A stretch of DNA of 64,000 bases, taken from positions 1-64,000 of the IMG/VR virus record IMGVR_UViG_3300042392_000853. One strand, written 5' to 3'. The notes beneath the pieces were generated by a model. The model ran no database searches, had not been told where the DNA came from, and saw only the letters and a program-made list of their open reading frames with translations. The DNA is from a virus. Shown piece after piece: positions 41,374 through 44,009 of this stretch. Position 1 is the stretch's first letter; every line of letters begins with the position of its first letter. Both the position numbers and the translations under genes were made by a program.

Positions 41374-41479
41374 GTAGCCAGACACCCACGGCGAACAGCG
41401 CCGCGCCGGCAACAAACATCCACGGCGCGAACCAGAGCCCGAGCAGGGCCATCGGCGCCAAAGCCACCTTGTCGTTCAT
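41336..41479 (-). CDS. Small membrane protein overlapping the ejection gene, 47 aa
   Basis: ATG at 41479 overlaps the helicase stop (ATGA) with AGGAG eight bases upstream. One long hydrophobic stretch (about 8-37, MALLGLWFAPWMFVAGAALF) then a basic tail (NRIRSRR). It ends inside the 3' end of the convergent ejection gene. It is the last gene of the minus-strand operon. Function unknown. Confidence 0.55.
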   Translation of the reverse strand: MNDKVALAPMALLGLWFAPWMFVAGAALFAVGVWLLSPPLNRIRSRR

Positions 41480-43731
41480 GTCTCGCTCCTCCGCTTCATA
41501 GCCTCAAGCAGCACGTCCTGCACGCTGCGCTTGTTGACGAGTCGGTCCAGCACCATCGCGTCCACCGTCCCTCGGGCGAGGATGTAGTGGATAAAGACAG
41601 GCCGGTCGTAGCCCGACTGCTTCTGGCGCTGCGGGCCGATCCGCTCGATGATCTGGTCGTGTTCCTCAAGGTTCCAGTTCAGGCCGAAGAACGCGAGGAT
41701 GTTGCCGCCGTCCTGTAGGTTCAGGCCGTGGCCCGCCGACGCCGGGTGCGCGACCAGCACCGGGATGCGACCCGCGTTCCAGTCCACAATCGTCTTGGGG
41801 TTGTCGTCCAGCGGCTTGGCCCCAGGAACCGCAGCGAGGATCCGCGCCAGATCGCTCTTGAAGTTGTAGGCGACCAGCACGGGCATCCCGTTGGCCTCCT
41901 CCACCACGCTCTTGAGCGCGTCGATCTTCTCGTCGTGCACGACGGCCCACGAGCCGTCCTCCTTGTAGACCGCGCCGTTCGACAACTGGAGGCACTTGCT
42001 GGTGCGCACCGCAGCGTTCACGGCCTCCACGCCCTCGCCCTCGATGAGCGCCCACATGTCGCGCTCCATCTCCTCGTAGGTCTTGCGCGCGTCCTTCGGC
42101 AACTCAACCTCGATCACGTTGCGGATCGGCTCGTCGACGTCCAAGCCCTTGACCGTCAGGCACACGTCCTTGAGCCGGTCCTCGATTTCCGCTTGCGCGA
42201 ACTCACGAGGCTGGAGGCTGTAGCCGTCCCAGCCCTTGGTGAACCAGCGCGCCTCGAACGCCGAGAACGTGCGACCCAGCCGCTCGCCGCGGTCAACGAA
42301 CCAGACCTGGCCCCACAGGTCCTTGAGCCCGTTCGGCGCCGGCGTGCCCGTCAGGCCGATGAACCGGCGCGACTTGGTGTGCGCCACCTTGGCCAGTGCC
42401 CGCGCCCGGGAGCCGCCCTGCCGGGTGCGGTATGACTTCAGTTTGGAGCAGTTATGGACGAGGACCCCGTTAGCAAAGTATGTAGGTGCTCCTTCAACCT
42501 CAAGGTTGAATACAGGGACCAAGCCTCCGTGTTCTTGATCCGAAACACGGTCCACCCCAACGACTGTAGCTTCTCGGTCTTCTTCCGATCCCGCGCCATA
42601 CCGAGGTAGGTCCCGTGCGACTGCCCATCCACCTCCAAGCACACCATCCGGCTGGCATCCGCGAAGTCGAGTTTGTAGTGCGACGGATATCCGGCCCCAG
42701 CCCCCTTCAACGACACTATGTGATTCCAGCGGAACCCTTCCGGCAGCAGCGGCGCAATCAGCGCCTCTGTGTTCGTCATGCCAGTCCCGTTGCCGCCCCG
42801 TTTGGCGGGGAACGGCTTGTTCTTCCGGACCTCCGACATCGTCGCCCGATGGGTCTCGGACCATGGCCTTCCATAGTTCCAAGCACGCATACCTTCCTGC
42901 TCGCGCTTCCGCTGAGTGGCCGTCATGTTTCGGCGGCTCAACTCTCGGTGCTCCGGGCGCCCGGAAACCGCCTTCGACCGGCAGCTTGTGGAGCAGTACT
43001 GGGTCTTGCCCAGTCCCGCCTGCGTGTGCGCTCGGCTGCCCCTTCGCAAGAAGGGCGTCTGACAGGTCGGACAGACAATCTCGACCATAGAGCCGCCGAC
43101 CTCCACAAGCCTCTGCGGGTAGCCATCCGGCGTCAGTAAAGAACGGGTGCGTTTTCGTGGCATAGATTTTAACCCCTGAACCTAGGGTCAAACATACCAG
43201 ATTAAAATCGTTTGAAAAGCGCCGATACACCCTGCGGATCCGGCGCGGCCCAACGTGCGTGAGAACCTCCTCGCCCTCAGACAAACTCTCGATAGGGCGG
43301 TCGCCGCCGGGCGTGGCGACCTGCGTCCCCGCGACGAAGCACTCGTCTGCAATCACCGTCTTGAACGGCCAGCCCTCGCCGTAGTGCGCGACAAGCCAAG
43401 GCACGTTGTCGTAGTTGGTGGCGTAGATGTCAGCAGGAAGGCGCAGGGCGGCCTCCCGCTGCTTGGCGGTGCCCAACACCGGCACGACCCTTAGCGCCTG
43501 CGTGTGAGCCCATTTGGCGGCTTCCTGTGGCCATGTGCTGCTCACCACCCGCTTGGGTGCCAACACCAGTGCGGGGAACACCTCCTCGACCGTATCCAGC
43601 GCGCTCAGGGCCGTCAGCACCGTGACCGTCTTGCCCCCGCCCATCGGCATCCACAGGACGCTGCGGCGCAGGTTGTAGAGGTGGTCGAGGGCCTCGCGCT
43701 GGTAGTCGTGCGGCGTGAAGGTGCGGGTCAC
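41476..43731 (-). CDS. SNF2-like helicase with intein
   Basis: 751-aa precursor from GTG 43731, which overlaps the preceding stop. After removal of the 297-residue intein (131-427) the enzyme is 454 aa. Motifs: HDYQREALDHLYNLRRSVLW (Q-motif region), MGGGKT (Walker A), VIADE+CSKLKS (Walker B, split by the intein), GTPAPNGLKDLWGQVW (motif III) and DQIIERIGPQRQKQSGYDRP (motif VI). SNF2-type translocases are part of the phage replication module that also holds VRR-NUC, polymerase, DUF2800 and DUF2815, all present here. Confidence 0.85.
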   Translation of the reverse strand: MTRTFTPHDYQREALDHLYNLRRSVLWMPMGGGKTVTVLTALSALDTVEEVFPALVLAPKRVVSSTWPQEAAKWAHTQALRVVPVLGTAKQREAALRLPADIYATNYDNVPWLVAHYGEGWPFKTVIADECFVAGTQVATPGGDRPIESLSEGEEVLTHVGPRRIRRVYRRFSNDFNLVCLTLGSGVKIYATKTHPFFTDAGWLPAEACGGRRLYGRDCLSDLSDALLAKGQPSAHAGGTGQDPVLLHKLPVEGGFRAPGAPRVEPPKHDGHSAEARAGRYACLELWKAMVRDPSGDDVGGPEEQAVPRQTGRQRDWHDEHRGADCAAAAGRVPLESHSVVEGGWGRISVALQTRLRGCQPDGVLGGGWAVARDLPRYGAGSEEDREATVVGVDRVSDQEHGGLVPVFNLEVEGAPTYFANGVLVHNCSKLKSYRTRQGGSRARALAKVAHTKSRRFIGLTGTPAPNGLKDLWGQVWFVDRGERLGRTFSAFEARWFTKGWDGYSLQPREFAQAEIEDRLKDVCLTVKGLDVDEPIRNVIEVELPKDARKTYEEMERDMWALIEGEGVEAVNAAVRTSKCLQLSNGAVYKEDGSWAVVHDEKIDALKSVVEEANGMPVLVAYNFKSDLARILAAVPGAKPLDDNPKTIVDWNAGRIPVLVAHPASAGHGLNLQDGGNILAFFGLNWNLEEHDQIIERIGPQRQKQSGYDRPVFIHYILARGTVDAMVLDRLVNKRSVQDVLLEAMKRRSET
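42438..43163 (-). CDS. Vsr-like homing endonuclease nested out of frame in the helicase intein
   Basis: 241 aa in a frame different from the helicase. It has an N-terminal zinc knuckle (CPTCQTPF...YCSTSC), a NUMOD3-like segment (SETHRATMSEVRKNKPF) and a Vsr/EDxHD-type nuclease (YKLDFADASRMVCLEVDGQSHG, then DRKKTEKLQSLGWTVFRIKN). ATG 43163 has AGGGG upstream. The start lies in intein block B and the stop lies in the C-extein, 13 bases past the splice junction, so its last 28 residues are read from DNA that also encodes intein blocks F and G. Confidence 0.8.
   Translation of the reverse strand: MPRKRTRSLLTPDGYPQRLVEVGGSMVEIVCPTCQTPFLRRGSRAHTQAGLGKTQYCSTSCRSKAVSGRPEHRELSRRNMTATQRKREQEGMRAWNYGRPWSETHRATMSEVRKNKPFPAKRGGNGTGMTNTEALIAPLLPEGFRWNHIVSLKGAGAGYPSHYKLDFADASRMVCLEVDGQSHGTYLGMARDRKKTEKLQSLGWTVFRIKNTEAWSLYSTLRLKEHLHTLLTGSSSITAPN
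42451..43341 (-). mobile_element. Helicase intein (class 1) carrying a nested endonuclease gene
   Basis: Inserted in Walker B between DE and Cys. It begins CFVAGTQVATPGG, has block B KIYATKTHPFFT, block F VFNLEVEGAPTYFANG and ends VLVHN before Cys+1: a normal Cys1/Asn/Cys+1 intein. The centre of the helicase frame (about 190 residues) is low-complexity and matches no endonuclease, because the endonuclease is in another frame over the same DNA. Confidence 0.85.
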
Positions 43732-44009
43732 ACCAAGTCGCCGCCGAACAGCTTTTCGGCGTCCACCCGGAAGCCGAACCCCCGGCGGTTGAGGACCGAG
43801 CCTTGCGGCACTTTCTGCCGGATGCGATGGATCACGACCGACAGGTGGGTGTGCGACTTGCGCCATACGGACAGCGGCTCAACGTCAAGGCCGATGGCCG
43901 TGGCCAGTTGCGCGTTGCTGACGTAGCCCTCGTGCTCAAGCATGTAGGCCAGCGCCAGCGCCTCTTGGTGCCCGAGTCCGAACATATCGGCCAGTTGCGA
44001 GATGGTCAT
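43728..44009 (-). CDS. OmpR/PhoB-type winged-helix protein, 93 aa
   Basis: A stand-alone DNA-binding domain with no receiver domain. EALALAYMLEHEGYVSNAQLATAI, then HLSVVIHRIRQKVPQG and SVLNRRGFGFRV follow the winged-helix pattern of response-regulator effector domains: the recognition helix with an xVHIxRxRxKx-like segment, then the wing ending in RGxGYxL. The host master regulator CtrA uses the same fold. It is coupled to GcrA (ATGA) and the helicase. Target sites unknown. Confidence 0.6.
   Translation of the reverse strand: MTISQLADMFGLGHQEALALAYMLEHEGYVSNAQLATAIGLDVEPLSVWRKSHTHLSVVIHRIRQKVPQGSVLNRRGFGFRVDAEKLFGGDLV

Follow-up and report, generated by a model that had tools for sequence, protein, structure and literature searches.

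The window, that is, the whole stretch of 64,000 nucleotides analysed here, comes from an IMG/VR virus record of 64,572 bases; its minus strand contains a helicase gene interrupted by an intein, over which a Vsr-like homing endonuclease is encoded in another frame. The features of this locus are the following:

41476-43731, minus strand: helicase gene (SNF2/DEAD-type, superfamily 2) including the intein, with a likely GTG start at 43731 (Pfam, length of the spliced product)
43342-43731, minus strand: N-extein, ending in VIADE (motif II), compared with the sites of phages GB2A and BPP-1
42451-43341, minus strand: intein of 297 amino acids, from C1 to HN and followed by C+1 (motifs, Pfam, NCBIfam, AlphaFold Hint fold, Foldseek)
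43306-43341, minus strand: intein block A (CFVAGTQVATPG), from motif alignment
43117-43164, minus strand: intein block B (YATKTHPFFTDAGWLP), from motif alignment
42451-42519, minus strand: blocks F and G of the intein, sharing their DNA with the C-terminus of the endonuclease
41476-42450, minus strand: C-extein, with first residues CSKLKS, stop included
42438-43163, minus strand: Vsr-like (EDxHD/DUF559) homing endonuclease ORF, 241 amino acids, +1 frame
42438-43088, minus strand: endonuclease of 216 amino acids (MVEIVCPTC...) as read from the better supported start, on Shine-Dalgarno strength (dG -10.0) and the starts of homologues
43100-43104, minus strand: Shine-Dalgarno sequence GGAGG of ATG 43088
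43173-43177, minus strand: Shine-Dalgarno-like AGGGG of ATG 43163
42981-43073, minus strand: zinc knuckle of the endonuclease (CxxC...CxxxC), with C31, C34, C57 and C61 invariant in alignment A1
42531-42686, minus strand: nuclease core (P160, Y163, D166, E177xDGxSH183, D192, W204, N211), from conserved columns and structure matches
42589-43023, minus strand: polypeptide read in the host frame across the endonuclease gene (intein residues 107-251), AlphaFold pLDDT mostly below 50

According to the ORF listing, the helicase frame is free of stops from 43866 to 41476 on the minus strand, and the most likely start of the gene is GTG 43731, which overlaps the stop of the upstream gene. The intein is of class 1 type (C1, T62xxH65, H296 N297 and C+1 are all present) and lies in helicase motif II, at DE/C (the slash marks the splice junction). 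The insertion is precise and in frame, as revealed by the comparison of VIADE/CSKLKS with the empty sites of Caulobacter phage GB2A (VVADE/FTRLKS) and of BPP-1 (VVADE/STKLKS), and the helicase minus its intein measures 454 amino acids, the length of the intein-free GB2A protein. The intein matched Hint_2 (2.4e-7) and, weakly, Intein_splicing (0.0013) in Pfam, as well as intein_Cterm (6.4e-7) in NCBIfam; the Pfam intein model gave no match at its threshold over the entire record. AlphaFold predicted a Hint fold with pLDDT above 90 at both ends, and Foldseek matched this model to the gp41-1, 2lwy and Mtu RecA inteins, the nearest solved folds including a bacterial intein-like domain. Hence, the 297-residue intein with its splicing blocks and open helicase frame, first proposed in a preliminary description of this DNA, is borne out by the ORFs, the motifs and the Hint fold. 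One feature speaks against taking efficient splicing for granted: block F of the window carries a P at the position occupied by H in most relatives (APTY versus HTY).

The offset of the endonuclease ORF relative to the helicase frame is 703, which places it in the +1 frame. Its assignment to the Vsr-like EDxHD nucleases with a zinc knuckle finds agreement in the Pfam match to DUF559 (1.3e-7), in the conserved residues (E177, G180, H183 and D192 are invariant, D179 and S182 nearly so, in the endonuclease alignment) and in the structure comparison. Indeed, the first-ranked Foldseek match of the endonuclease model is the catalytic domain of the EDxHD homing endonuclease I-Bth0305I (3R3P), the closest fold to the nuclease core of the window, with 3HRL also among the top folds; at the sequence level the similarity to I-Bth0305I is weak (E 0.05). 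The NUMOD3 motif that had been attributed to the same protein was not recovered, as Pfam gave no match to it at E ≤ 1. The coordinates confirm that the endonuclease stops 13 nt beyond the splice junction, so that the DNA of blocks F and G also encodes the endonuclease C-terminus. Among the relatives described below, the endonuclease stops fall at a few recurring distances from the junction; for 41 of 94 the distance is -8 nt, which makes the stop overlap with block G, and in the window it is +13.

The PDB entry of I-Bth0305I is named "mobile intron protein". As EDxHD-related endonucleases are known in introns too (PMC12350094), one may ask whether a group I or II intron, not an intein, carries the gene. 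The intein motifs, the Hint fold and the open frame all speak against this, as does the lack of any Rfam match at E ≤ 1 in the region 41400-44000, and we regard an intron as almost vanishingly improbable.

As regards the start of the endonuclease, ATG 43163 does lie in block B, as the preliminary description had it; the start that appears better supported is nevertheless ATG 43088, outside that block, even if the choice is still uncertain. The Shine-Dalgarno pairing is stronger at ATG 43088 (GTGGAGGT, dG -10.0) than at ATG 43163 (dG -6.0); ATG 43088 sits just 5' of the first CxxC, in agreement with the start position in many homologues, and residues 1-22 of the long form were modelled mostly with pLDDT below 50. 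In the family as a whole, the first ATG of the endonuclease ORFs shows stronger Shine-Dalgarno pairing than the +1-frame ATGs of the exteins (median -4.75 versus -2.6, p = 2e-5), a difference which favours internal initiation as the probable mode of endonuclease translation. The window showed no sigma-70 promoter from which the endonuclease might be transcribed. A programmed +1 frameshift, yielding a fusion of N-extein, intein and endonuclease in place of internal initiation, would fit the phase, which is constantly +1; however, the endonuclease ORFs often begin a few codons past an in-frame stop, with a Shine-Dalgarno sequence and an ATG of their own (in locus L088, AAAGGAGGTATATAA followed by ATG; likewise L010 and L083), and such a short spacing between stop and ATG leaves little room for a frameshift, which makes this explanation quite unlikely.

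A tblastn search of phage genomes with the endonuclease returned 40 records. In all of the eight phage regions inspected (Pseudomonas MR14, Corynebacterium phi673 and Vibrio CP-T1, 104E43.1, 159E43-1b, 1.194.O, 1.088.O and K391) the endonuclease lies in the +1 frame inside a single intact CDS and is unannotated; only the host gene being annotated in these GenBank regions, the endonuclease had been missed. Scans of IMG/VR and GTDB contigs led to 89 endonuclease loci in 61 clusters (GC 0.30-0.66), and the addition of an intein-based scan, which used A6, a subset of the intein-N alignment A5 (A5 itself being too little conserved), brought the set to 156 loci, which form 106 clusters when grouped at 85% identity. 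The loci are mostly metagenomic, the cultured phages representing the firm cases. In 103 of the 106 clusters the host frame is free of stops over the +1-frame endonuclease; the remaining three are L056 (a free-standing gene), L065 (a gene at a contig end, just upstream of a helicase that is uninterrupted) and L086 (a split intein). A search blind to the endonuclease, based on the N-terminal splicing motif alone, recovered the nested layout in 67 of 80 inteins. The nested, double-coded layout thus recurs widely and is not a one-off. It had been envisaged that homologues might have an endonuclease read in the intein frame, but none of the 156 endonuclease loci does so, and the same-strand cases with a continuous intein are all in +1 with the host frame open. 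Sequencing error or a local frameshift is ruled out by the independent genomes of cultured Vibrio, Pseudomonas and Corynebacterium phages.

Some other arrangements were observed in the same set. In-frame middles that look by eye LAGLIDADG-like were found only in inteins at other sites (L157, L161, L166, L167, L171), and in L023:1577-4978 a single helicase harbours both an intein of the nested type and a second intein, with a Hom_end_hint match close to the N-terminus. Helicases are not the only hosts of the nested element, which was also observed in a clamp-loader-like AAA+ gene (L033) and in genes that lack a Pfam assignment (L154, L160; L168 is listed alongside).

Might the intein frame be open simply by chance, within a GC-rich endonuclease gene and with no need for the helicase to be read through? 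In the window alone (66% GC), the probability of an open host frame under synonymous recoding of the endonuclease is 0.002-0.008, a moderately surprising and at most suggestive value, and no extreme one when the finding was selected among many. It is the family, and not the window by itself, that leads us to reject chance: 103 of the 106 clusters are open, down to 30% GC, and log10 of the probability summed over 56 clusters is -269 to -344, E-values and neutral expectations alike deriving from simple models. In the +1 phase, each host codon is made up of the third position of an endonuclease codon and the first two positions of the next one. Because of this phasing, a host stop requires a T before AA, AG or GA. 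At these risky pyrimidine sites, the 103 clusters have T in 0 cases and C in 1,535 (T 3,729 and C 3,120 at the other sites); the zero follows from the frame being open, and the information lies in the 1,535 opportunities and in the lack of avoidance in un-nested relatives. Indeed, the three clusters outside an open intein frame have 37 T and 39 C at risky sites, and the free-standing and split relatives carry stops near the expected rate (9 versus 10.9 in L056, 26 versus 27.9 in L086). The recoding probabilities and the T/C comparison therefore refute chance openness at the level of the family, and we consider it extremely unlikely.

A further possibility is that of a split intein in a fractured gene, in which the two helicase halves and the endonuclease would be translated separately and the protein joined by trans splicing. 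Fractured genes with Vsr-like endonucleases have been published (Dassa et al. 2009, NAR 37:2560, as cited in PMC12350094 and PMC3229294), and one of our loci, L086, has an endonuclease of the same family, 26 stops in the intein frame and separate N- and C-parts. On the other hand, no stop lies between the intein halves in the window and in 103 clusters, a condition which selection keeps, and we judge a split arrangement very unlikely for the window. Taken by itself, L086 (L086:548-1522) appears to represent a natural split intein within a helicase gene: a stop closes its N-part, and a possible start of its own precedes the C-part. In another locus (L065:1-438), a free gene for the same endonuclease directly precedes an uninterrupted helicase whose DECHH motif is intact.

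Selection was measured in close pairs of relatives, the window having no close relative of its own. In the overlap of the pair L013/L014, 34 sites differ, of which 3, 0 and 31 fall at endonuclease codon positions 1, 2 and 3, respectively; nonsynonymous changes make up 12% of the changed codons in the endonuclease frame (79% under neutrality) and 85% in the host frame (73% under neutrality). The same direction was found uniformly in the 54 pairs compared, which are not independent: the nonsynonymous share of changed codons is 0.12-0.64 in the endonuclease frame (neutral 0.69-0.88) and 0.79-0.98, with no depletion, in the host frame (neutral 0.73-0.87). Since it is only in the endonuclease frame that nonsynonymous changes are depleted, the pattern indicates that the endonuclease is, in these relatives, a real protein under purifying selection, whereas the overlapping host peptide drifts and would need only to stay stop-free and readable. 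This is in agreement with the AlphaFold model, in which the Hint domain occupies the intein ends and the part between them is a predicted disordered loop. The preliminary idea that both frames are kept open accordingly stands, with the difference that one of them is conserved as a protein and the other is merely kept free of stops. An amino-acid constraint on the middle of the host frame is not supported, the conserved L222 and Q223 looking like a shadow of the YK motif of the endonuclease.

The alleles found in relatives fit cleavage of the empty allele by the putative homing enzyme. Once the intein is set aside, the helicase regions of Corynebacterium phages phi673 and phi674, both infecting C. 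glutamicum ATCC 13032, show 99.2% identity; phi673 alone has the 302-residue intein, phi674 representing the empty allele, and the predicted spliced helicase of phi673 matches that of phi674 at 532 of 535 residues. The +1 residue is C in the occupied and V in the empty allele, and the nucleotide mismatches are grouped directly downstream of the junction, at +1, 2, 3, 9 and 24. Judging from these alleles, the two phages are a natural homing pair. Among Vibrio phages, one helicase exists with an empty site (141E35-1), with a mini-intein (K459, 268E42.1) and with the full element (1.194.O, 1.088.O). Mini-inteins at the DE/C site were observed in L109, L129, L227 and L229 as well, the first two retaining a remnant of the +1-frame endonuclease. 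The distance between endonucleases is correlated with extein distance (Spearman 0.55) more than that between inteins is (0.29); a correlation of the endonuclease with the extein is expected if the enzyme recognises a target there.

The constancy of the phase can be read in the light of the genetic code. Its enumeration revealed that, of the five alternative phases, only sense +1 and antisense in register are without a forced host stop; in the other three, a stop is unavoidable at 5, 6 and 5 dipeptides, and between 71 and 95 of the 103 endonucleases would hit at least one of these. A single founder could also give a constant +1, so the argument from the code explains the persistence of the phase and not its origin. 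The second permitted phase is also occupied: in L151, L169 and L170, and then in L173, L178 and L208, a Vsr-like endonuclease lies antisense to an open intein, in register, with the following positions in the first three loci, as obtained from the intein scan:

L151:3112-3801, minus strand of the intein: antisense endonuclease
L169:3232-4068, minus strand of the intein: antisense endonuclease
L170:3103-4095, minus strand of the intein: antisense endonuclease

The antisense endonucleases have no TTA, CTA or TCA codon in the matched stretch, whereas most relatives without a detected intein have them. These inteins sit in other genes, with extein junctions such as DSRT/C, and represent a second nested architecture, of which L177 and L179 are likely further cases. 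We give even odds to a broader proposal, namely that overlap coding of mobility genes in inteins is general, that it persists only in the two phases in which stops can be erased synonymously and that lost openness is one route to natural split inteins.

Taken together, these data lead us to interpret the locus, with a probability of roughly 0.85, as a double-coded mobile element composed of an intein in the helicase frame and a separate homing endonuclease in the +1 frame. Its architecture and the conservation of that architecture are read directly from the sequences, as are the avoidance of stops and, in relatives, the selection on the endonuclease frame and the occupied, empty and mini alleles; the steps by which it would act are what we infer. 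The two parts of a Hint splicing domain (about residues 1-100 and 257-297), with a disordered loop between them, would allow the intein to excise itself post-translationally, restoring helicase motif II, while an internal ribosome-binding site within the intein would yield the stand-alone Vsr-like endonuclease, read one base on. The enzyme would probably cut intein-free helicase alleles at motif II, and repair would then copy intein and endonuclease together. The endonuclease would tolerate the overlap because T-to-C changes at the risky third positions are always silent.

With the known endonuclease-bearing inteins, such as the Mtu RecA intein PI-MtuI and PI-SceI, the element of the window shares the Hint domain, the class 1 residues, the insertion at a conserved ATPase motif and the position of the endonuclease between blocks B and F. 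In those inteins, however, the endonuclease is an in-frame domain, whereas here it is a separate +1-frame protein overlapping blocks F and G. The fractured genes, as far as they are described in the papers citing Dassa et al., have in common with the window the general endonuclease family and the phage setting, and L086 resembles them; in those descriptions both intein and gene are split in two, while the gene of the window is whole because the overlapping frame is stop-free. Indeed, the intein frame of the window has 0 stops, and the fractured layout was found only in L086. An HNH endonuclease inserted out of frame in a phage methylase (the ShiLan type, PMC11855218) likewise occupies another frame of an open host gene, as in the window; it differs in having neither intein nor splicing domain and no detected ribosome-binding site, whereas the window has a Vsr-like enzyme, complete intein motifs and a Hint fold. 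Our literature search retrieved no continuous intein with an endonuclease in an overlapping frame, although a mention in Dassa et al. or in subscription journals is possible.

The nested layout represents a third way in which inteins carry a mobility gene, beside the in-frame domain and the fractured gene, and it seems to be common, given the 67 of 80 cases recovered by the blind search. It also offers a clean natural case of overlapping genes in which the genetic code explains the possible phases. The occurrence of one endonuclease family as nested, split (L086), free-standing (L056) and adjacent to an intact helicase (L065) outlines a path, open to testing, by which inteins could become natural split inteins, and the nested layout may be a link between ordinary inteins and those natural split ones that serve as tools in biotechnology. 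Phages phi673 and phi674 on C. glutamicum represent a ready laboratory pair for the study of splicing, internal initiation and homing.
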